DNA from: Pseudactinotalea terrae
GTDB taxonomy: Bacteria; Actinomycetota; Actinomycetes; Actinomycetales; Beutenbergiaceae
DNA length: 64,000 nucleotides
Direction of reading: 5' to 3'
Assembly: GCF_009733845.1 (NCBI RefSeq)
Contig: NZ_WNXZ01000003.1
Coordinates: 310,001 to 374,000 of the forward strand
In this document: positions 5,724-18,888 of the stretch, piece by piece
Position numbering within the stretch: position 1 is the first letter of the stretch
Layout: every line of letters begins with the position of its first letter
The notes under the pieces: model-generated
Told to the model about the DNA's origin: nothing
The model's input: only the letters and a program-made list of their open reading frames with translations
Database searches by the model: none
Program-made: the position numbers and the translations under genes

Positions 5724-6540
5724 GCCGCTCACCGTCGCCACCGTCAACGTCAACGGGATCCGCGCGGCGTTCCGGCGCGGGATGCCCGCTTGGCTGACGG
5801 CGAGCCAGCCCGACGTGCTGCTGCTGCAGGAGGTCCGCGCACCCAGCTCGATCCTCACCGAGCATCTCGGGCCCGACTGGCACCTCGTGCACCACGAGGC
5901 TCCGACCGCCGGGCGCGCCGGCGTGGCGATCGCCTCCAGGCTCGCGTTCCAGGCAGTGCGGCTCGGGCTGCCCGGGGAACCGACCGAGAGCGTGGGTCGC
6001 TGGGTCGAGTCCGATCTCCTCATGCCCGACGGCGAGACCCTCACCGTGATCTCGACCTATGTCCACACCGCGACCGCGCGCACGCCGTCGATGGCGGTCA
6101 AGCTCGCCTTCCTCGAACGAGCTACCGCGAGGCTGGCCGAGCTGGCCGAGGGCCGTGCGGTGCTGGGCGGCGACCTCAACGTGGCCCACGACGAGCGGGA
6201 CATCAAGAACTGGAAGGGCAACCGTGGCAAGTCGGGCTTCCTGCCGCAGGAGCAGGCGTACCTGACGCGCTGGCGCGAGCTCGGCTGGGTCGACGCCGCG
6301 CGCACCTACGCCGGTGATGTCGAGGGGCCCTACACCTGGTGGTCCTGGCGCGGCCGCGCGTACGACAACGACGCGGGGTGGCGCATCGACTACCTGTGGT
6401 GCTCGGCCGCGCTCGCGCCGTCCGTGCGTGAGGTCACGGTCGACCGCGCGCCCGGCTATGAGGGTCGCTGGTCGGACCACGCCCCCGTGAGGGCTGTGCT
6501 CAGCCAGCGCGACCCGCTGGGCCGCCGGGCGTCGCGATGA
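5713..6540 (+). CDS. xthA: Exodeoxyribonuclease III
   Basis: A 275-residue endonuclease/exonuclease/phosphatase-fold enzyme that cuts DNA 5' to abasic sites and trims 3' ends in base-excision repair. Catalytic motifs are in order: VNVNGIRAAF (Asn near 12), LLLQEVRA (metal-binding Glu40), GGDLNVAHDERDIKN (Asp154, Asn156), RIDYLW and the terminal SDHAPV (catalytic Asp-His). Start GTG 5713 overlaps the TetR gene. The 3' end overlaps the convergent galK by 41 bp, so the last 13 codons of each gene are antisense to each other. Confidence 0.93.
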   Translation: MGSEPLTVATVNVNGIRAAFRRGMPAWLTASQPDVLLLQEVRAPSSILTEHLGPDWHLVHHEAPTAGRAGVAIASRLAFQAVRLGLPGEPTESVGRWVESDLLMPDGETLTVISTYVHTATARTPSMAVKLAFLERATARLAELAEGRAVLGGDLNVAHDERDIKNWKGNRGKSGFLPQEQAYLTRWRELGWVDAARTYAGDVEGPYTWWSWRGRAYDNDAGWRIDYLWCSAALAPSVREVTVDRAPGYEGRWSDHAPVRAVLSQRDPLGRRASR

Positions 6541-8424: not shown

Positions 8425-9561
8425 ATGAACGATCAGGCCGAAGAAGCAGCGAAGCGCTCCGACGACGACGGCGCCGTCGAGGCGGCGAAGACGCGCCTCG
8501 CCCGGCTGCTCGAGTGGTGGAAGCAGACCCGCGTCGCTCGTGGCCTCGCCCGCTACGGCGCCACCAACGGGGCGTTGCTCACCGGAGGCATCGCCTACTC
8601 GGCGCTGTTCTCGATCTTCGCGGGACTTGCCGTCGCGTTCTCGATCTTCATGGCGATCGTGGGCGACAACGAGGGGATGCAGGAAGCCGTTCTCGCGGCG
8701 CTCGACTCCGCGCTGCCCGGCGTGGTGCAGTCCGAGACCAACTCCGACGGGATGCTCACGCCCGAGAGCCTGCGCTTCAGCGGCGGGGCCTCGTTGCTGA
8801 CCGGCGTCATCGGGTTCGTGGTGCTGATCAACGCCGCGATCTCGGTGATGGCCGCGCTGCGGGCGGGTATCCGTGCGATGTTCGGGATCGTCACCACCTC
8901 GGAGAACGCCGTGGTCGCGAAGCTGCGCGACCTGGCCGGGTTCGTGGTGCTCGCGCTCGCGGTCGTGCTGACCGCCGGGTTGGGGATCGCGGTGGGGACC
9001 GCGGGTACGGCGATCGCCGACGCTGTCGGGCTCGGCGACAACCCTGCGGTGCAGGTTCTGCTGCGGATCGCGGGATACCTGGTCGCGCTGGCCGTGGACC
9101 TCGGGGTGGTGGTCTTCCTCATCCGCGGCCTGGCGGGCGCTCGACCGCCCCGCAGGGATCTGCTGACCGGTGCGCTGGTCGTCGCGGTCGCCGCCGGTGT
9201 GATCCGGTTCCTCGGGACCTCGATCGTGGGCGGTGCGGCCAGCAACCCCCTGCTCGCCCCGTACGCCGCGATCATCACGCTGCTGCTCTGGGTGAACTTC
9301 ATCGTCCGGATCCTGCTGATGGTGTGCGCGTGGACGGCGAACCCGCCCGCGGTCCCGGAGGTCGAGCCGGGCCAGCTCACGCACGAGGACGAGGCCCCCA
9401 ACTACGTCACCGAGACCGATCCCGACACGCTGGCGTGGGACCACGACCCCAGCACCGGTCGCATCCGCCCTGCTCCCGCTCCCGATCCTGAGCGCGAGGA
9501 GTACTGGGGCGGCCTCATCGGCTGGATCAAGCGCAAGTACCGCGGCTTCCGCGACGCCTGA
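8425..9561 (+). CDS. YihY/BrkB-family inner membrane protein
   Basis: A 378-residue polytopic protein. After a charged cytoplasmic N-terminus, six hydrophobic segments run from about residue 52 to 300, beginning with the family's TNGALLTGGIAYSALFSIFAGLA. A polar C-terminal tail of about 75 residues follows. Family members are often called 'ribonuclease BN' from an old misassignment; they are membrane proteins of uncertain function. The ATG starts two bases after the upstream stop, so the pair is one operon. Confidence 0.88.
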   Translation: MNDQAEEAAKRSDDDGAVEAAKTRLARLLEWWKQTRVARGLARYGATNGALLTGGIAYSALFSIFAGLAVAFSIFMAIVGDNEGMQEAVLAALDSALPGVVQSETNSDGMLTPESLRFSGGASLLTGVIGFVVLINAAISVMAALRAGIRAMFGIVTTSENAVVAKLRDLAGFVVLALAVVLTAGLGIAVGTAGTAIADAVGLGDNPAVQVLLRIAGYLVALAVDLGVVVFLIRGLAGARPPRRDLLTGALVVAVAAGVIRFLGTSIVGGAASNPLLAPYAAIITLLLWVNFIVRILLMVCAWTANPPAVPEVEPGQLTHEDEAPNYVTETDPDTLAWDHDPSTGRIRPAPAPDPEREEYWGGLIGWIKRKYRGFRDA

Positions 9562-9675: not shown

Positions 9676-9832
9676 CGGTGGGACGTCGTCACGGTGACCG
9701 GGATGCAGATGTGGGACCCCGAGCGCGTGATCAACCGCGTGCGTGCTGCGTTGACCCCGCGCAGGCGAGACTCTCCCGCCCGTCAGCCAGGAATGGCGCC
9801 GCCACTTCCCGACCCGCCGCCGCCCGTCTTGA
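9676..9832 (+). pseudogene. 3' remnant of a DUF559 endonuclease-like gene
   Basis: Translation from 9676 reads RWDVVTVTGMQMWDPERV and continues to RVRAAL. This closely matches the C-terminus of the intact DUF559 protein at 17792-18700 (WKVVTVTGMQMWDPERV...). After that a frameshift separates it from the matching end segment (SQEWRRHFPTRRRP then TGA at 9830). Nothing resembling the first 250 residues is present upstream, so this is a decayed tail. The nucleotide match continues past the stop into the repeat array, as at the intact locus. Confidence 0.8.
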
Positions 9833-9884
9833 CCTCGTGGGTGGACGCGACACCGCTGTGCGTCCCGCACGACTGGCCGTCGAC

Positions 9885-10173
9885 GTTGCGCAGTTGACAC
9901 CCCGGTGGGTTCCGCAACACCTACGGTGCTGCGGCGTTGCGGTTGTGACACCTGGGTGGGTTCCGCAACGCTGACGGTGCTGCGGCGTTGCGGTAGTGAC
10001 ACCTGGGTGGGTTCCGCAACGCTGACGGTGCCGGGGCGTTGCGGTTGTGACACCTGGGTGGGTTCCGCAACGCTGACGGTGCCGGGGCGTTGCGGTTGTG
10101 ACACCTGGGTGGGTTCCGCAACGCTGACGGTGCCGGGGCGTTGCGGTCGTGACACCTCGGTGGGTTCCGCAAC
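9885..10173. repeat. Palindromic tandem array, six units, 51-bp period (left copy)
   Basis: Each unit is GTTGCG(G/C), 20 bases, CCGCAAC, so its ends form a perfect 7-bp inverted repeat. Units are separated by 17 bases, giving an exact 51-bp period (unit starts 9885, 9936, 9987, 10038, 10089, 10140). The 20-base interior is nearly invariant and contains a smaller CACC-TG-GGTG inverted repeat. Inter-unit bases are also nearly identical, unlike CRISPR spacers. The array follows the DUF559 remnant by about 50 bp. 10174-10340 shows no gene. Confidence 0.9.
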
Positions 10174-10340
10174 ACCTACGCGGAATCCGCTTGGGGTGAT
10201 CCCCGGGCCACCGGGTGCACCGCCAGCACCCCAAAGCGCTTTCCCGAGCTGCAGCGGGCGGGCTCGAGCCGGCTGCGCCGAGGCGGTGCGCGGCGGCACG
10301 CTGCTCAGCCGGACCCCGTGCTGATCTCCGGCCGAGATCA

Positions 10341-10374
10341 TCAAACCGGTTGACCTCATCGTCAAACCGGTTTA
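10341..10374 (+). promoter_or_regulatory. Twin LacI-family operators upstream of the sugar-island regulator
   Basis: TCAAACCGGTTGA (10341-10353) and TCAAACCGGTTTA (10362-10374) each contain the CG-centred palindrome AACCGGTT typical of LacI-family sites. Their centres are 21 bp apart, two helical turns, so two dimers could bind on the same DNA face. They lie 35-65 bp before the LacI-type gene, pointing to autoregulation of the whole operon. Confidence 0.75.
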
Positions 10375-10407
10375 GCGTCGACTTTGCCGTCACCACGAGG
10401 GAGTGTT

Positions 10408-11445
10408 GTGAGCAGACCGACGATCGGGGACGTGGCCGCCGCCGCAGGTGTCACGAAGGCCACCGTCTCGCACGCGTACAGCGGGAAGCGACCCATCTCG
10501 GTCGCGACCAAGCAGCGTGTCTTCGCCGCCGCCGAACAGCTGCAGTGGGTGCCGAGCTCGAGCGCACGTGCGCTCGCCACCCGCCGGGCCAACGCCGTCG
10601 GGATCATCCTCGCTCGCGACCCGGACATCCTCGCCTCCGACACCTTCTTCCCGGCGTTCATCGCCGGAGTGGAGTCGGTGCTCGCCCGCCAGGAGGTCGC
10701 GCTCGTCATGCAGGTGGTCACCAACCGCACCGCCGAGGAGCGCGCGTATCGGGCGATGGCCCATGGCCGCTCCGACGGCGTGATCCTCCTCGACCTGCAC
10801 CGCAGCGACTGGCGCGTGGGGTTCCTGCAGGATCTGCGCATCCCCGCGGTGCTCCTCGGCGCGTACGACGGCGAGACCTCCTTCTCGCGCGTCCGCACCG
10901 ACGATGCCACGCCGGTGAAGGAGCTGATCGCCCATCTGCGGGCTGCGGGGCACGAGCGCATCGCGCACGTGGCCGGCCCGCTCGACTACGTGCACTCCTA
11001 CGTGCGGGCCCGCGCCTACCTCGAGGAGACGGGCACGCCCGAGCTGTTGCGCGAGGGTGACTTCACCGCCGGGAGCGGCCGCGACCTCACCGCCGAGCTG
11101 CTCAGGCTGCCCGACCGGCCGACCGCGATCGTGTACGCGAACGACACCATGGCGATCGCCGGCTACTCCCACGCCCGCGCCCACGGCCTCGACGTCCCGC
11201 GCGATCTCGCCGTCGCAGGGTTCGACGACGACCACCTCTCCGGCCATCTCAGCCCGGCGCTGACCAGCGTCTTCACCGATCCACGACGGCGCGGTGAGGT
11301 CGCAGCAGAACGTCTGCTCGCCGACATCGCCGGCGACCTGCACCGCGAGGTCACCGTCGACTGCACCCGGCTCGTGCTGCGCGAGAGCACCGCGGCCGCT
11401 GCCCCCACCACCGCTCGCCCCCTGCTCACGAAGGAGCTCCCATGA
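10408..11445 (+). CDS. LacI-family transcriptional regulator
   Basis: A 345-residue repressor. Residues 1-50 hold the LacI helix-turn-helix and hinge (RPTIGDVAAAAGVTKATVSH, then ALATRRANAVGII). The rest is a periplasmic-binding-protein-like sensor domain ending in the usual VAGFDDDHLS...LTSV segment. GTG 10408 is preceded by GAGGGA with suitable spacing; the frame is open further upstream but unlike the family. It is the first gene of the sugar island and overlaps the binding-protein gene by ATGA. The inducer is probably an oligosaccharide imported by the adjacent ABC system. Confidence 0.92.
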   Translation: MSRPTIGDVAAAAGVTKATVSHAYSGKRPISVATKQRVFAAAEQLQWVPSSSARALATRRANAVGIILARDPDILASDTFFPAFIAGVESVLARQEVALVMQVVTNRTAEERAYRAMAHGRSDGVILLDLHRSDWRVGFLQDLRIPAVLLGAYDGETSFSRVRTDDATPVKELIAHLRAAGHERIAHVAGPLDYVHSYVRARAYLEETGTPELLREGDFTAGSGRDLTAELLRLPDRPTAIVYANDTMAIAGYSHARAHGLDVPRDLAVAGFDDDHLSGHLSPALTSVFTDPRRRGEVAAERLLADIAGDLHREVTVDCTRLVLRESTAAAAPTTARPLLTKELP

Positions 11446-12722
11446 AGATCATCCGACCTGTTGCCCTGCTCGGCGCAGCAGCCCTGCTCGTCGCCGGTTG
11501 CTCCGGTGGCGGAGGCGGCGGTGACGACGGCGGCGAAGGCGTCGAAGCGACCGGCCCGATCGACATCTGGCTCTCGAACAACGAGCAGGAGGTGGCCTGG
11601 GGGACCGCCGTGGTGGACGCCTGGAACGCCGAGCATCCCGACGAGCAGGTGACCGCGCAGGAGATCCCCGCCGGGTCGTCGTCGGAAGAGGCGATCACGG
11701 CCGCCATCACAGCGGGCACGGCACCCTGCCTGGTGTTCAACATCGCGACCGCAGCTGTCTCGGGCTGGGTGCGTCAGGGAGGGCTCGTCGACCTCACCCA
11801 GTTCGACGACGGGGCCGACTACATCAACGAACGAGGCGGCGACAGCGCCGCCTCGTACATGACCGACGACGGCTTCTACCAGCTGCCTTGGAAGTCCAAC
11901 CCGGTGATGGTGATGTACAACAAGACGATCTTCGCCGACGCCGGCCTCGACCCCGAGAACCCCGGCATGGAGAGCTATGACGACTTCCTGGCCGGCGCCC
12001 AGCAGATCGTCGACTCCGGTGCCTCGCAGAGCGCGATCTGGCCCTCGCCCACGAGCGAGTTCTACCAGCCGTGGTTCGACTTCTATCCGCTCTACATCGC
12101 CGAGACCGGCGGCACGATGCTGGTCGAGGACGGCGAAGCCACCTTCGACAGCGACGAGGGTCGCGCGGTCGCCGAGTTCTGGGCGCAGATCTATGCCGAC
12201 GGGCTCGCGCCGCAGGAGGCCTCGACCGACGACGCGATGTCGGTCGGCACGACCGCGATGCAGCTCGCCGGCCCCTGGGCCATCGCTTCCTACGCCGAGA
12301 CGGTCGACGTGGGATTCATGCCCGTGCCTACCAGCAGCGGGTCCGAGGACGTGTTCACCTTCGCCGACTCCAAGAACGTCTCGATGTTCACCTCGTGCGA
12401 GGCGCAGGGTACGGCGTGGGAGTTCCTCAAGTTCGCCACCAGCGAGGACAGCGACGGCCAGCTGCTGGAGCTGACCGGGCAGATGCCGCTGCGGACCGAC
12501 CTCGCTGCCACGTTCCCCGAGTACTTCGAGGCCAACCCGAGCTACGAGGCGTTCGCCGGCCAGGCCGAGCGGGTCGCCGACGTGCCGAGCGTGCCGAACT
12601 CCGTCGAGACGTGGCAGGCCTTCCGTGACGGCTACTCCGCCGCCGTCATCTTCGGCACCGCCCCGGTCGACGAGTTCCTCACCAGCACGGCCGAGACGAT
12701 CAACGGCCTCGTGGCGGAGTAG
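11442..12722 (+). CDS. Sugar ABC transporter substrate-binding lipoprotein
   Basis: A 426-residue family-1 (MalE-type) solute-binding protein. The signal peptide ends in the lipobox LVAGC (Cys20), followed by a Gly/Asp linker, so it is lipid-anchored outside the membrane. AAGGAG precedes the ATG. The mature part has the usual IWLSNNEQEV start and a PLPWKSNPVMVMYNKTIF-like central strand. It feeds the two permeases that follow; together with GH130 this suggests a beta-mannosidic oligosaccharide ligand, which is inference. Confidence 0.9.
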   Translation: MKIIRPVALLGAAALLVAGCSGGGGGGDDGGEGVEATGPIDIWLSNNEQEVAWGTAVVDAWNAEHPDEQVTAQEIPAGSSSEEAITAAITAGTAPCLVFNIATAAVSGWVRQGGLVDLTQFDDGADYINERGGDSAASYMTDDGFYQLPWKSNPVMVMYNKTIFADAGLDPENPGMESYDDFLAGAQQIVDSGASQSAIWPSPTSEFYQPWFDFYPLYIAETGGTMLVEDGEATFDSDEGRAVAEFWAQIYADGLAPQEASTDDAMSVGTTAMQLAGPWAIASYAETVDVGFMPVPTSSGSEDVFTFADSKNVSMFTSCEAQGTAWEFLKFATSEDSDGQLLELTGQMPLRTDLAATFPEYFEANPSYEAFAGQAERVADVPSVPNSVETWQAFRDGYSAAVIFGTAPVDEFLTSTAETINGLVAE

Positions 12723-12724
12723 CG

Positions 12725-13645
12725 ATGACCACGGCTCCCACAGCCGGCCAGGACCGGGTGCGCGCCCAACGCCGGGGGTGGTTGGGCGCGCAGCCGATCG
12801 GGTCGCTGTTCACGCTGCCGTACCTGGTGTTCGTGCTGACGATCTTCGCCTACCCGCTCGGGTTCGCCGTCTACATCGCCTTCCACGACTACTTCTTCAC
12901 CGCTCCGGGCGTCGAGGTGCCGAAGCCGTTCGTCGGGTTCGACAACTTCGCGGCCGTGCTCACAGACGAGCGGGTGCTCGAGTCGTTCCGCAACACCGCG
13001 GTGTTCCTGGTCATCAACGTGCCGCTGACGGTGGTGCTCTCGATGGTGCTCGCCACCGCCCTGGACTCCGGCGTCCGGTGGGCCTCCGCGTACCGGATCG
13101 CGTTCTACGTCCCGTACCTGACGGCGAGCGTCTCACTCGTGGGGGTGTGGATGCTGCTGTTCTCCTCGGGCGGGCTCATCAACAGCGTGCTGGGACCGTT
13201 GGCGCCCTCGCCGTCGTGGCTGATCAACTCGACCCTGGCGATGCCCACGATCGCGCTGTACGTCACGTGGAAACAGCTCGGCTTCTATATCCTGCTCTAC
13301 CTCGCGGCGCTGCAGAACGTGCCGAGGGAGCTGCACGAGTCGGCGATGACCGACGGCGCGAACGGCTGGCAGCGGTTCCGCGCCGTCACGATCCCGGGGG
13401 TCCGCGCGGCCACCACGCTGGTGCTGATCCTCGCCATCATCACGGGCGCCAACCTGTTCACCGAGCCCTATCTGCTGACGGCGGGCGGCGGTCCCGACGG
13501 CGCCTCCAGCACCCCGGTGCTCCTCATCTACCAGCAGGGCATCCAGCAGCAGAACCCGGATACCGCCGCGGCGATCGGGATGCTGCTGGTGATCGTGGTC
13601 GGGCTGCTGTCGCTGACCGCCAACCGCCTCACGAGGGAGAGCTGA
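12725..13645 (+). CDS. Sugar ABC transporter permease (MalF-type)
   Basis: A 306-residue integral membrane protein with six predicted helices. It has the EAA loop (ELHESAMTDGANGWQRFRAVTIPG) near residues 205-228 that docks to the ATPase. It starts two bases after the binding-protein stop, and its stop overlaps the next ATG (TGATG). Confidence 0.92.
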   Translation: MTTAPTAGQDRVRAQRRGWLGAQPIGSLFTLPYLVFVLTIFAYPLGFAVYIAFHDYFFTAPGVEVPKPFVGFDNFAAVLTDERVLESFRNTAVFLVINVPLTVVLSMVLATALDSGVRWASAYRIAFYVPYLTASVSLVGVWMLLFSSGGLINSVLGPLAPSPSWLINSTLAMPTIALYVTWKQLGFYILLYLAALQNVPRELHESAMTDGANGWQRFRAVTIPGVRAATTLVLILAIITGANLFTEPYLLTAGGGPDGASSTPVLLIYQQGIQQQNPDTAAAIGMLLVIVVGLLSLTANRLTRES

Positions 13646-14547
13646 TGTCCACCAAGCGACCTTCCTCTGCGCCGCTGCCTTCCGCCGAGCGACCTCGCGC
13701 GAGGGCCGGAGCCATGCGCCGCACGCGCCTCACCTGGCTGCGCTACGTGGTGCTGACGGTGGCAGCGCTCGTGTTCGCGTTCCCGTTCTACTTCATGCTG
13801 ATAGGGGCGTTCCAGGAGAACCCGACCAACACCCCGGACAGCATCTTCCCGACCTCCGGGTGGACCACCGGCAACTTCGCGGCGATCGACTCCCGCATCG
13901 ACCTCGTCGGCTCGTTGCTCAACTCGCTGGTCTTCACCGCCGGCGTGCTGCTCGGCACCGTGGTGTTCGGGCTCCTCGCGGGCTACGCGATCGCGCGACT
14001 GAACTTCCGGGGCCGTGGTGTGACCTGGGTGCTGATGCTGCTCGTGCAGATGGTGCCCTTCCAGCTCCTGATGATCCCGCTGTACGTGCAGATCACGCGA
14101 GGCTACGGGCTGGGGGACACCTATCTCGGCATGATCCTGCCGTTCGCGATCAACACGACCGCCGTCTTCATCTTCTCCCAGTTCTTCCGTGCACTGCCGA
14201 AGGAGATGTTCGAGGCCGCCAGGATCGACGGCGCGGGTGAGCTCCGGCTGCTGGTCTCGATCGCCGTCCCGCTGGTGCGACCCGCACTGGTGACGGTTCT
14301 GCTCGTCACCTTCATCGGTCCGTGGAACGAGTTCCTCTGGCCGTTCCTCATCACCAAGGACGCCACGATGCAGCCGCTGGCGGTGTCCCTGGCGAACTAC
14401 ATCTCCAACGTCGCGCAGTCCACCGCCAACCCCAACGGCGCGATCCTCGCGGGCGCTACCGCGCTCGCTTTCCCCGTGGTGGTGCTGTTCTGCCTGTTCC
14501 AGCGCTATTTCACCGCCTCTGACCTCGGCGCAGCCGTGAAGGGCTGA
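13645..14547 (+). CDS. Sugar ABC transporter permease (MalG-type)
   Basis: A 300-residue permease with a basic N-terminal tail, six helices and the EAA motif (EMFEAARIDGAGELRLLVSIAVP) around residue 190. ATG 13645 shares a base with the previous stop; the much longer open frame upstream is an overlap with other genes. No ATP-binding subunit is encoded in the island, so the pair must use one made elsewhere. Confidence 0.92.
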   Translation: MSTKRPSSAPLPSAERPRARAGAMRRTRLTWLRYVVLTVAALVFAFPFYFMLIGAFQENPTNTPDSIFPTSGWTTGNFAAIDSRIDLVGSLLNSLVFTAGVLLGTVVFGLLAGYAIARLNFRGRGVTWVLMLLVQMVPFQLLMIPLYVQITRGYGLGDTYLGMILPFAINTTAVFIFSQFFRALPKEMFEAARIDGAGELRLLVSIAVPLVRPALVTVLLVTFIGPWNEFLWPFLITKDATMQPLAVSLANYISNVAQSTANPNGAILAGATALAFPVVVLFCLFQRYFTASDLGAAVKG

Positions 14548-14550
14548 AGG

Positions 14551-15537
14551 ATGACCTCAACGACCATGTTCGACGACGCGCGGTTCCCGCTGGGCCCGTT
14601 CGTCCCCTACGAGGGCAACCCGATCCTGCGACCCCAGGGTGGGACGTGGGAGTCGGCGAACCTCTACAACCCGGCCGCCCTGGTCGAGGGCGACGAGGTG
14701 CTGCTGCTGTACCGCGCGCACGCCGAGGACATCGTGTCCCACGTCGGCCTGGCGCGCAGCCGCGACGGCCTGCACTTCGAGCGCGAGGCCGAGCCGATCC
14801 TGTCGCCGAGCGAGGACTACGAGCGGTACGGGTGCGAGGACCCGCGCATCGCCGTCATCGACGGCACGTACTACCTCACCTACACCGGCTGGGACAGGCG
14901 CAGCGCACAGCTGTGCCTGGCCACCTCGACCGACCTGCGCACGTGGACCAAGCACGGTCCGTTGTTCGAGGACTTCGACACCTTCGCGACCATGGACCCG
15001 CGAGGCTTCAACTGGTCCAAGGCCGGTGTGATCGTGCCGGTGCAGATGCAGGGGAAGTGGTGGATGTACTTCGGTGAGGGCGGTATCTACTGGGCCACCA
15101 GCGACGACCTGATCCACTGGACGCCCGGCACGCCGGACACCGAGCCGATGTACGCCCCGACGCCGGGGACCTTCGATGCCGACCTCGTCGAGATCGGCAC
15201 GTCGCCGGTGCTCACCGACAACGGCCTGCTGGTGATGCTGACCAACGGTGCCACCCGCCTGGTTCACGACGACGGCACGGTCGATGTCGACTACCGGTGC
15301 GGTCAGATCGCGATCGACCCCGACGACCCCACCACCGTGATCGCACGCATGCAGGTGCCGTGGCTGCGACCGCAGACCTTCGAGGACCGGCACGGGCTGG
15401 TCTCGAACGTGACGTTCGTCGAGGGGCTCGTGAAGTTCCACGGCACGTGGTTCGCCTACTACGGCCAGTCCGACACCACACTCGCAGTCGCGGTCCACGA
15501 CCCGGCCGAGCCCTGGGGCGCCTCGCTGCGCCACTGA
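14551..15537 (+). CDS. GH130-family beta-mannoside phosphorylase-like enzyme
   Basis: A 328-residue five-bladed beta-propeller protein of GH130. The family's NPIL strand is near residue 23, and the catalytic Asp lies in YGCEDPRI (Asp97). It has no signal peptide, so it acts in the cytoplasm on imported sugar. Characterised members phosphorolyse beta-1,4- or beta-1,2-mannosides to mannose-1-phosphate; a few are hydrolases. The short length suits mannooligosaccharide phosphorylases rather than the longer mannosylglucose enzymes, but exact specificity cannot be read from sequence. Mannose-1-phosphate would be a direct substrate for ManC 8 kb downstream. Confidence 0.88.
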   Translation: MTSTTMFDDARFPLGPFVPYEGNPILRPQGGTWESANLYNPAALVEGDEVLLLYRAHAEDIVSHVGLARSRDGLHFEREAEPILSPSEDYERYGCEDPRIAVIDGTYYLTYTGWDRRSAQLCLATSTDLRTWTKHGPLFEDFDTFATMDPRGFNWSKAGVIVPVQMQGKWWMYFGEGGIYWATSDDLIHWTPGTPDTEPMYAPTPGTFDADLVEIGTSPVLTDNGLLVMLTNGATRLVHDDGTVDVDYRCGQIAIDPDDPTTVIARMQVPWLRPQTFEDRHGLVSNVTFVEGLVKFHGTWFAYYGQSDTTLAVAVHDPAEPWGASLRH

Positions 15538-15569
15538 CCCCCTTTCGCACCATCCGACGAGAGACGACG

Positions 15570-17588
15570 ATGACGACTCGACGTACGTTCCTGACCCTGT
15601 CTGCAGCACTCCCGGCCACCGCCCTGGTGGCGCCCGGCATCGCGACCGGGGCTCCGCCGTCGGACACCCCGGTGGGCGGAGGGAGACGGAACAGGCTGAC
15701 GAACCTGGACCACCTGCGGTTCCTGCTCGAGGAGGTACCACTGGTGGCGGACGGCACGCACACGACGTATCGGATCGAACACGAGCCGACAGCCCTGGCA
15801 CCGTGGACGTACGCCGACGCTGACGGCGCCGAGTTCCGGCGGATCGGTGGCGGTGCGCTCGACCCCGAGACCGGCTACTACTCGCAGGGCGCGTACAACG
15901 CCGACGACATCTCACGAGCTGCCGTGGTGTTCCTGCGGGCCTGGCGTGCGCGGGGCGACCGGGGCAGCAAGGAGCACGCCTACCAGCTGCTGCGCACGCT
16001 CACGTACCTGCAGAACGACAGCGGTCCGAACGCGGGCCGGGTGGTGCTGTGGCAGCAGTCCGACGGCACGCTCAACCCGAGCGCCGAGCCGGTGGAGCTG
16101 CCGGACCCGTCGGACTCGGCGGAGTCGTACTGGCTCGCGCGAACCGTGTGGGCGCTCGGCGAGGGGTACGCCGCCTTCCGGCGCAGTGGCGAACGGAGGT
16201 TCGCGGACTTCCTGAAGGAGCGCCTCGACCTGGCCGTGGCGGCGCTGGAGGCGGAGTCGCTGTCGCGGTACGGGAGCTGGGTGACGAGCGACGGCGTCGA
16301 CCTGCCGGACTGGCTCATCACCGGCGGTGCGGACGCGACGGCGGAGGCGATGCTCGGGCTGGTCGCGGCGCTGGAGGTGGGTCCCAAGGACCGCCGGCTG
16401 CGGCGTGCGCTCGACCGGTACGGCGAAGGGGTCGCGGCGATGGGGACCTCGCGGTCAGGTGGCTGGCCGTTCGGCGCCGTGCTGCCGTGGACCGGATCGC
16501 TCGGGTTCTGGCACGCGTGGGGAGGTGCAGCGCCGGAGGCGTTGGCGCGTGCCGGGCGTGCGCGCCACCAGCGTGAGTGGGTGCGGGCCGCGATCGCGGA
16601 CGCCGGGACCTTCACGCCCCAGGTTCTGGCCAGCGGGGGACCCAGCAACGCCTGGGCGCCGGTGCCGGCGGAGGCGCAGATCGCCTACGGCGCGCACGGG
16701 CGGGTGGCGGGCCCGCTCGCTGCTGCTGAGGCCGGCGGCGGACGCGGCCTGCGGGTGGTCGCCGGGCTCGCGGCGGGCTGGTTCTTCGGTGCGAACACCG
16801 CCGGCATCCCGACCTACGACCCTGAGACCGGTGTGACGTTCGACGGCGTCGAGACCGACGGCCGGGTCAACCGCAACTCCGGGGCCGAGTCCACGATCCA
16901 CGGTCTCCTGACGATGCAGCTGCTCGACGCACACCGTGACGTCGCTGCGCTCGCCACCTCGATCACGGGGTACGCGAGCTTCGACGGACTGCAGGTGCTC
17001 GACGCCGCTGCGGGCACCCTGAGCGCCGGCTGCACGATCGTCACGCCCGACGGCGGCGCCTGGACCGGGGAGGGCAACCTCGTGGGCGGGCACTACGTGT
17101 CGGTGCCAGCAGGGGAGTGGGTCGAGCTGGACGTGGACGCGGCCGCGGGCAGCTGGGCGCTCCCGCTCGCGTGGCGCACGGCCGAGGAAGCGGGCGACGC
17201 GGAGTGGGCGGTCGTCGACGGTCCGGTGCTGGGGACCTCGGTCAACGGCAGTACCGGCTCCGCAGGCCTGACCGAGGCGGAGGGGAGCCTGATCCCGCAG
17301 CAGCTGGAGCAGCCCTTGCCCGGCGGCGTGGTGCGGTTGCGGTGCACGAGTCGGGGGGAGCTGCGGCTGAACGCGCTGCTCGTGCGCCCGGCCGTGGCGA
17401 CCGCCCACTACACGACCACCGATGGTGACGCCGTTCTCTACGCCGGCGCGACGCCGTCGGGCACCGAGGTCCCGGCGCTCGCGCCGGGCACGGGCCGCAG
17501 CTACGACGCCGACGGCGACCCGCATCGCCGCGTCACCGCCGGTTCCACCGTCCCCGTCCTTGCCGGAGGATTCACGATCACGACGTGA
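15570..17588 (+). CDS. Tat-exported alpha/alpha-toroid protein with a C-terminal beta domain
   Basis: A 672-residue secreted protein. The N-terminus is a twin-arginine signal (MTTRRTFLTLSAALPATALV) cleaved near residue 28. Residues of about 60-470 are helical repeats rich in Trp and Ala, resembling a six-hairpin glycosidase; near the end of this domain is RNSGAESTIHGLL, and a GAES(T) motif also carries the acid in GH9-type enzymes. The C-terminal 200 residues are beta-rich and may be carbohydrate-binding. I cannot assign a family. Its position after GH130 suggests it releases oligosaccharides outside the cell. ATG 15570 follows GH130 by 32 bp. Confidence 0.8.
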   Translation: MTTRRTFLTLSAALPATALVAPGIATGAPPSDTPVGGGRRNRLTNLDHLRFLLEEVPLVADGTHTTYRIEHEPTALAPWTYADADGAEFRRIGGGALDPETGYYSQGAYNADDISRAAVVFLRAWRARGDRGSKEHAYQLLRTLTYLQNDSGPNAGRVVLWQQSDGTLNPSAEPVELPDPSDSAESYWLARTVWALGEGYAAFRRSGERRFADFLKERLDLAVAALEAESLSRYGSWVTSDGVDLPDWLITGGADATAEAMLGLVAALEVGPKDRRLRRALDRYGEGVAAMGTSRSGGWPFGAVLPWTGSLGFWHAWGGAAPEALARAGRARHQREWVRAAIADAGTFTPQVLASGGPSNAWAPVPAEAQIAYGAHGRVAGPLAAAEAGGGRGLRVVAGLAAGWFFGANTAGIPTYDPETGVTFDGVETDGRVNRNSGAESTIHGLLTMQLLDAHRDVAALATSITGYASFDGLQVLDAAAGTLSAGCTIVTPDGGAWTGEGNLVGGHYVSVPAGEWVELDVDAAAGSWALPLAWRTAEEAGDAEWAVVDGPVLGTSVNGSTGSAGLTEAEGSLIPQQLEQPLPGGVVRLRCTSRGELRLNALLVRPAVATAHYTTTDGDAVLYAGATPSGTEVPALAPGTGRSYDADGDPHRRVTAGSTVPVLAGGFTITT

Positions 17589-17628
17589 GGCACCAGTCAG
17601 CCTCGATCGCGCCGGCTCCCACGCTGGT

Positions 17629-17714
17629 GTTGCGCGATCTGGTGCTGTGGTCAGCTCCGCAACGCGGATGGGCCGAGCCCGTTGCGGAACCGCCTTTCGT
17701 GCTCCTTGGGCAAC
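17629..17714. repeat. Degenerate palindromic array upstream of the DUF559 gene
   Basis: GTTGCGC (17629-17635), 21 bases, CCGCAAC (17657-17663), 17 bases, GTTGCGG (17681-17687), 20 bases, GGGCAAC (17708-17714). Arms and spacings match the arrays downstream of the DUF559 gene and its remnant, but the interior sequences are unrelated. The last intact arm ends about 100 bp before the DUF559 ATG, so the gene is bracketed by the element on both sides. Confidence 0.6.
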
Positions 17715-17791
17715 GTGCCTGGGTACGACACGGGCCTGCTTGCCTGTGGACAGCCCCAGCGAACAGCGACCACTCTTCGTCACGATGTCCC

Positions 17792-18700
17792 ATGCCTTTC
17801 GATCCGACGCAGCCGTTCACACGCGCTCAGGGTGAGGCGGCCGGTCTCAACTGGCGGCACTTCAGCGGCCCGAGGTACCAACGGCCGCTGCGTGGCGTCT
17901 ACATCGAGGCCGGCGTGGTGCTGACGCCCGCAATCCGCGCGCGTGCGGCTCTCCTGGTGGTCGGAGAGAACGGCGCGATCTGCGGGGTCAGCGCAGCTGA
18001 CATTCGCGGCCTGCCGGTGCCGGTCTGCGAGGACACGCACGTGCTCGTGCCGCGCGGCGCGCCACGCGTCCGGATGCGGGGGATCGTGACGCACCAGGGC
18101 ACGCGGAAGCTCAGCCAGCACCGCGGCATCCCGGTCACTGCGATGAAGGACACCTTCCTCGACGTCGCCAAGGACTACCCGCTCGTCGACGCCGTCGTGC
18201 TGGGTGATGCCATGGTGCGGGAGGGCTACGTCAGTCCGCGTCAGCTGGTGGCTGCGGCGGCAGGAGCCCGAGGACGAGGCGCCGAGCGCGCGCGCCGCGC
18301 CGCAGGGCTCGTCCGTGCGCGAGTGACGCTCCCGCAGGAGAGCAAGTTGCGGCTGCTGTTGATCTCCAGCGGGTTCCCGGAGCCGGAGACCGGGGTAGAG
18401 GTGGAGGCGGCCGGACGCCGACGCGAGCTGGACACCGCCTACCGCGAGTGGCGCGTGGCAGTCGAGTACGACGGGCGCCATCACGTGGAGCGCGACCTGC
18501 AATGGAGCGAAGACATCGAACGCCGGGAAGAGCTCAACGGTGACCAGTGGAAGGTAGTGACGGTGACGGGTATGCAGATGTGGGATCCCGAGCGTGTCAT
18601 CGCCCGCGTCCGGGCAGCGTTAGCAAGCGTGGGCGCGCCCCTGCCTGCGGTGAGTCAGGAGTGGCGCCGCCACTTCCCGACCCGCCGCCGTCCTTCCTGA
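17792..18700 (+). CDS. AbiEi-like N-terminal / DUF559 endonuclease-like protein
   Basis: A 302-residue two-part protein. Residues 1-100 resemble the AbiEi winged-helix antitoxin module (FTRAQGEAAGL, then RPLRGVYI). Residues of about 178-275 look like the DUF559 PD-(D/E)xK nuclease fold: LPQESKLRLLL (Glu183), RRELDTAYREW (Asp214) and VAVEYDGRHH (Glu225). It is common in multiple copies in Micrococcales; its role is not established. ATG 17792 starts at the first family-like residues. No partner toxin is adjacent. Palindromic repeats lie on both sides. Confidence 0.8.
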   Translation: MPFDPTQPFTRAQGEAAGLNWRHFSGPRYQRPLRGVYIEAGVVLTPAIRARAALLVVGENGAICGVSAADIRGLPVPVCEDTHVLVPRGAPRVRMRGIVTHQGTRKLSQHRGIPVTAMKDTFLDVAKDYPLVDAVVLGDAMVREGYVSPRQLVAAAAGARGRGAERARRAAGLVRARVTLPQESKLRLLLISSGFPEPETGVEVEAAGRRRELDTAYREWRVAVEYDGRHHVERDLQWSEDIERREELNGDQWKVVTVTGMQMWDPERVIARVRAALASVGAPLPAVSQEWRRHFPTRRRPS

Positions 18701-18752
18701 CCTCGTGGGTGGACGCGACACCGCGGGGCGTCCCGCACGACTGGCCGCCGAC

Positions 18753-18888
18753 GTTGCGCATGTGACACCTGGGTGGGTTCCGCAACACCCACGGTGCCGC
18801 GGCGTTGCGGTTGTGACACCTGGGTGGGTTCCGCAACACCCACGGTGCCGCTGCGTTGCGGGAGTGACACCCCGGCAGGTTCCGCAAC
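18753..18888. repeat. Palindromic tandem array, three units, 51-bp period (right copy)
   Basis: Three units start at 18753, 18804 and 18855. Each is GTTGCG(G/C), 20 bases, CCGCAAC, with 17-base separators, matching the left array in arms, period and most interior bases. The array begins 52 bp after the DUF559 stop, and the intervening sequence is also shared with the left locus. Confidence 0.9.

Follow-up and report, generated by a model that had tools for sequence, protein, structure and literature searches.

A DUF559-type gene that stands between palindromic repeat arrays in the actinobacterium Pseudactinotalea terrae raises the question whether the nuclease and the palindromes form a functional unit. 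A first-pass annotation of the window (the whole 64,000-nt stretch of DNA that was analysed) had proposed such a nuclease-palindrome module, comparable to REP/RAYT systems. Our analysis indicates that DUF559 nucleases are probably responsible for both the spread and the maintenance of their own repeats. The relevant features of the window are as follows.

9676..9830, plus strand: second, decayed copy of the 3' end of DUF559, aligning with 18543-18700 (protein match to residues 253-303)
9885..10173, plus strand: second array, six units with a 51-bp period
10337..17588, plus strand: operon of LacI, sugar ABC transporter and glycosidase between both DUF559/array copies, absent from this place in sister genome G001
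17629..17714, minus strand: upstream decayed array in opposite orientation, in which 17 nt separate a 35-nt unit (17629-17663) from a 34-nt unit (17681-17714)
17792..18700, plus strand: gene for a 302-aa protein with an AbiEi-like wing-helix and a DUF559/Vsr-like PD-(D/E)XK nuclease, from Pfam and PADLOC matches
17816..18295, plus strand: AbiEi-like N-terminal region, residues 10-169, from the PADLOC AbiEi profile; putatively the repeat-reading part
18338..18622, plus strand: Vsr-like nuclease domain at the C-terminus (residues 184-278), in which E184, D215 and E226 are conserved
18753..18888, plus strand: downstream array of three 34-nt palindromic units with an exact 51-bp period

The downstream units lie at 18753-18786, 18804-18837 and 18855-18888. 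Their 51-bp period and 17-nt separators agree with the initial description as three GTTGCGG-N20-CCGCAAC units; the arm of the first unit, however, reads GTTGCGC, and both arms are exact in only two of the three. The upstream array, initially called a degenerate version with unrelated interiors, does have the 17-nt separator, but its interiors resemble the downstream unit when read on the minus strand (GTTGCGGAGCTGAC..., ...GGCGGTTCCGCAAC). The gene is therefore located between a decayed array and an intact array of opposite orientation. A decayed upstream array also accompanies the orthologous gene in P. suaedae. At the proposed second locus, 9676-10173, an array does lie beside a decayed DUF559 tail, but tail and array align with 18543-18888 as a single block and thus represent a copy and not a second association; the scenario of two independent loci in the window was rejected. 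The pattern GTTGCGG-N18..22-CCGCAAC is present seven times in the window versus 0 times in 100 shuffles, and the predicted hairpin of the unit is weak (z -1.4). A CRISPR or integron attC identity was rejected by sequence reading, since neither period nor interiors fit, and a known RNA family was rejected because Rfam has no family in the window at the gathering threshold.

The description of the protein as an AbiEi-like winged helix joined to a PD-(D/E)xK-like domain is supported by our data. The PADLOC AbiEi profile matches residues 10-169 (E 5.6e-10). Pfam matches the protein with MTES_1575 (E 2e-5; 25 bits versus a gathering cut-off of 38.2) and DUF559 (E 0.012; 15.9 bits versus 20.6), neither of which reaches the curated cut-off; among 14 members, 11 match MTES_1575 and nine match DUF559 at E <=0.1. 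In the alignment of relatives the acidic active-site residues are conserved in 82/82 (E184), 80/82 (D215) and 80/82 sequences (E226), and this near invariance suggests that catalysis by the DUF559-type nuclease is probably under selection. Similarity to solved structures is weak (3hrl, E 0.12), and a single-sequence structure model of the window protein was too poor for use (pLDDT 39). Relatives of the window protein are present in 21 of the 24 genomes of the host family, and the nearest full-length paralogue in the P. terrae genome is 28% identical.

Throughout the P. terrae genome the GTTGCGG-type pattern was found in 19 places at nine loci, and a reversed control pattern in none. Separators are constant at 17 nt across these loci, units measure 34-35 nt and interiors vary. 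Seven of the nine loci lie between ordinary genes without a nearby DUF559 gene. In a search of 84,980 species the exact 34/17 geometry was recovered in 12 stretches, with a true array only at the P. suaedae locus; nearly all of the rest seem, on reading, to be fortuitous hits within coding sequence and were discarded. P. suaedae carries the exact array at the orthologous locus and one decayed orthologous array besides. The search for the 34-nt unit in related genomes, suggested by the first-pass annotation, has yielded exact arrays in P. suaedae only. Scattered copies unlinked to a nuclease gene, which that annotation named as a refuting outcome, are what is expected of a REP-like dispersed repeat. 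Since both loci of the window derive from a single duplicated block, and the majority of genomic copies do not lie beside a DUF559 gene, the local evidence taken by itself is weak.

The association was then assessed gene by gene in a flank test, in which about 300 bp upstream were compared with about 300 bp downstream of each gene in either orientation, and flanks were taken to match at z >=4 over dinucleotide shuffles. In the host family, 23 of 28 AbiEi-like/DUF559 genes had matching flanks versus two of 30 TetR genes. The corresponding numbers are 30/39 DUF559 genes versus 20/366 neighbouring genes in other Micrococcales families (superseding the 23/26 from an earlier ORF-based, less complete gene call) and 18/21 versus 14/167 controls in other orders of the class. 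Controls with gaps of at least 100 bp on both sides matched in 5/74 (other Micrococcales) and 0/32 cases (other orders). The effect is large in each of the three gene sets; pooled, it amounts to 71/88 DUF559 genes versus 36/563 controls (p = 6e-51, a value that overstates independence as the loci are partly related), and 17 of the 88 genes have no matching flanks at z >=4. Palindrome bracketing of AbiEi-DUF559 genes is general across many actinobacterial families. DUF559 paralogues do not, then, usually lack repeats, each having a repeat family of its own, and the proposed module resembling REP/RAYT is upheld by the flank result and not by the window loci.

Each DUF559 gene is accompanied by its own palindrome, and the sequence of the repeat tracks protein relatedness. 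Among 82 loci, repeats are shared by 19/19 protein pairs with at least 60% identity, by 76% of pairs with 50-60% and by 2-6% of those below 40% (Mantel r 0.42, 0/999 permutations). Most close protein pairs with common repeats are syntenic, and common descent of the locus therefore accounts for part of this correlation. A prediction, namely that a repeat met at a solo site will also be found around a DUF559 gene, was tested by a new search of three genomes (G000 denotes P. terrae, the genome of the window, G002 is P. suaedae, and L numbers are fetched loci). GGTTTCAACACGATTCCG, solo in G002, flanks DUF559 gene L252 of the same genome, five times upstream and three times, inverted, downstream. 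GGTGGCTGAGCGTCCA, solo in G000, lies beside DUF559 gene L243 of the same genome, with the exact motif on one side. GATTTCAACGCACTTCCG, solo in G000 (L016, L019), has no partner among the DUF559 genes detected in G000; it is L246 of sister genome G002 that it flanks. The prediction held, for two families in the same genome and for one in a sister genome.

Most gene-flanking repeats are palindromes with a median span of 64 nt and perfect arms of up to 34 bp, which downstream start about 18 bp past the stop codon and upstream end about 84 bp short of the start codon. In some families (L252, L083, L085, L093) the repeats are instead short tandem units whose orientation upstream of the gene is opposite to that downstream. 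Units measure either 34 nt or about 45-85 nt, and predicted hairpin stability over the repeat families ranges from z -1.4 to z -14. Twenty units, joined into one query and searched against 24 genomes, matched in the genome or the genus from which they came, with at least about 15-29 matches per genome in many. The genus-mates G011 and G015 as well as G004 have no repeat among the matches listed and no close relative by window-protein search. G011 has distant relatives by profile, and G012, where the window protein finds no more than a weak homologue, has kept repeats of the g7 type; the co-occurrence of repeat and nuclease is consequently suggestive, not strict. Nearly all fetched solo copies are intergenic, and 11/20 are located between convergent genes versus 73/324 baseline regions (p 0.002).

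Repeats are gained and lost between sister species: the array present at one site is absent from the orthologous site in L022 vs L223, L019 vs L219, L197 vs L234 and L237, and L201 vs L239. Tandem copy number changes as well, with one extra unit at L207 relative to L204, and a different family occupies the orthologous site in L018 vs L218 and in L199 vs L232 and L238. No clean target-site duplication was seen at the insertion junctions compared at orthologous sites.

The history of the window locus can be followed in part. In sister genome G001 the genes YihY, DUF559 and sdhB are adjacent, with no sugar operon between them, while in P. terrae the operon separates YihY from DUF559 and the second DUF559 tail and array lie on the YihY side. 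On each side the operon is bordered by a direct copy of DUF559 tail and array (window 9676-18888). P. suaedae has the sugar operon and lacks the second tail/array copy. Recombination between array copies could have created the arrangement seen in the window. The P. suaedae (G002) orthologue of the window gene is frameshifted near its 3' end (L067, about 8700-8840), and the alternative that the locus is a relic of DNA mobility fits only single copies of this kind. GTTGCGG units in the P. suaedae genome are few and partly decayed. In another genus the sdhB-adjacent site (L076, L088, L090, L077) harbours a DUF559 clade with only about 28% identity to the window protein, which suggests either an insertion-prone hot spot or very rapid divergence.

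Among known systems, REPtrons (RAYT/TnpA-REP) are characterized by cognate palindromes that border a single low-copy gene and are dispersed in intergenic regions, with a preference for the 3' ends of genes and for gaps where genes converge, and with a different repeat for each enzyme (PMC3733652, PMC8266576). The DUF559 systems share these traits: the genes are likewise bordered by cognate palindromes (71/88 versus 36/563 controls), and the linked palindromes are likewise dispersed at extragenic sites. In contrast, the DUF559 enzyme is a Vsr-like nuclease and RAYT a Y1 HUH transposase, the DUF559 systems sit in Actinomycetes, and some of their families are short tandem units with opposite orientation per side. 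A RAYT as the resident enzyme was rejected, since the P. terrae genome has no match to the Y1 transposase family PF01797 while 5/14 control genomes do. The end tetranucleotide GTAG (or CGTC) of REPs is absent from the 34-nt units listed. TIRtrons are RAYT-like genes between long gene-specific terminal inverted repeats, some of them in repeat families (PMC3733652); DUF559 genes are also flanked by gene-specific inverted repeats, but the enzyme class is unrelated and dispersed repeat families are common in the DUF559 case. The N-terminal region fits profiles of AbiEi, the antitoxin of the AbiE type IV toxin-antitoxin system, but a nuclease C-terminus replaces the antitoxin domain and the repeats occur on both sides of the gene and genome-wide. 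No DUF1814 toxin gene was noticed; the neighbours of the window gene are the sugar operon and sdhB. With DUF559/MTES_1575 proteins of the Vsr-like restriction endonuclease fold the window protein has the nuclease domain and the conserved acidic residues in common. In the open-licence literature searched, no description of a link between the DUF559/MTES_1575 domain and palindromic repeats was found.

We consider it rather likely that AbiEi-DUF559 genes constitute a REPtron-like system, built on a Vsr-like PD-(D/E)XK nuclease whose wing-helix half would recognise a palindrome private to its own gene, with the repeat copied elsewhere. The N-terminal half is the likely repeat reader because AbiEi proteins, as well as Rv2827c, bind inverted repeats, in their case in promoters (PMC7319586). 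The nuclease may bind and cut the repeat as a double strand or as a hairpin extruded during replication, and repair or recombination of the cut might then copy and homogenise the repeats, in a manner like that proposed for RAYTs with a different enzyme. The repeat, which brackets the gene, would be copied into further intergenic positions, in most cases directly downstream of a stop codon. The gene in the window belongs to this system, its repeat being a short unit of 34 nt arrayed with a 51-bp period.

The binding of promoter inverted repeats by AbiEi and Rv2827c, together with the spacing of the palindromes, which upstream lie about 84 bp from the start codon and downstream about 18 bp from the stop, would also suit repeats that act as operators or terminators, with the AbiEi-like domain repressing its own gene, downstream and solo copies serving as decoys or terminators, and the nuclease target lying elsewhere. 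This scenario is unlikely, as it leaves the matching downstream copies, the dispersal to convergent sites, the tandem arrays and the replacement of families unexplained, and by inspection neither loop size nor a T-tract points to ordinary terminators. Still less probable is a mobile element with long terminal repeats, formed by the gene and its flanking repeats, of which solo arrays would be the remnants. Long inverted repeats do occur at the flanks (163 bp at 85% in L076), and the sdhB-adjacent site holds different nuclease clades in different genera. However, with the best full-length paralogue in the genome at 28% identity it is the repeats that multiply and not the gene, close relatives are mostly syntenic, and the solo sites read contain repeats only.

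A role in defence, with the nuclease cleaving foreign DNA and private repeats marking self or regulating its activity, is equally improbable. The DNA-binding half does match AbiEi profiles from a defence database, and it was in proteins of conflict systems that the Vsr/MTES_1575 nuclease was initially recognised (PMC3710099). Yet neither a partner toxin gene nor clustering or phage linkage was seen at the window locus, one viral-contig scan returned no relative, and the mobility of the repeats is left unexplained.

DUF559-type proteins were found in 139/149 Micrococcales and 163/198 class-level genomes, and the literature searched names no source of actinobacterial intergenic palindromes. That AbiEi-DUF559 genes, several per genome in most Actinomycetes examined, represent a second, unrelated class of repeat-propagating enzymes, in which each Vsr-like nuclease binds, cuts and spreads its private palindrome and which makes much of the intergenic palindrome content, is a proposition on which we are evenly divided. 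A private nuclease-palindrome pairing, if true, would provide a testable function for DUF559-type proteins and a source for intergenic palindromes. It would also mean that unrelated nucleases gave rise to REP-like repeat systems on more than one occasion, and would make available a large natural collection of DNA-binding domains, each with its matching target sequence.

Further observations were made at individual solo sites. In the comparison of L205 with L208 (G016, G019) a solo array lies at a synteny breakpoint between sister species, which are syntenic on one side only. Upstream of leuS in L016 (about 5730-6110) three different repeat families are placed next to each other within a single intergenic region, in a BIME-like mosaic, and a short leucine-rich, leader-peptide-like ORF, possibly an attenuator, precedes leuS at about 6185-6215.
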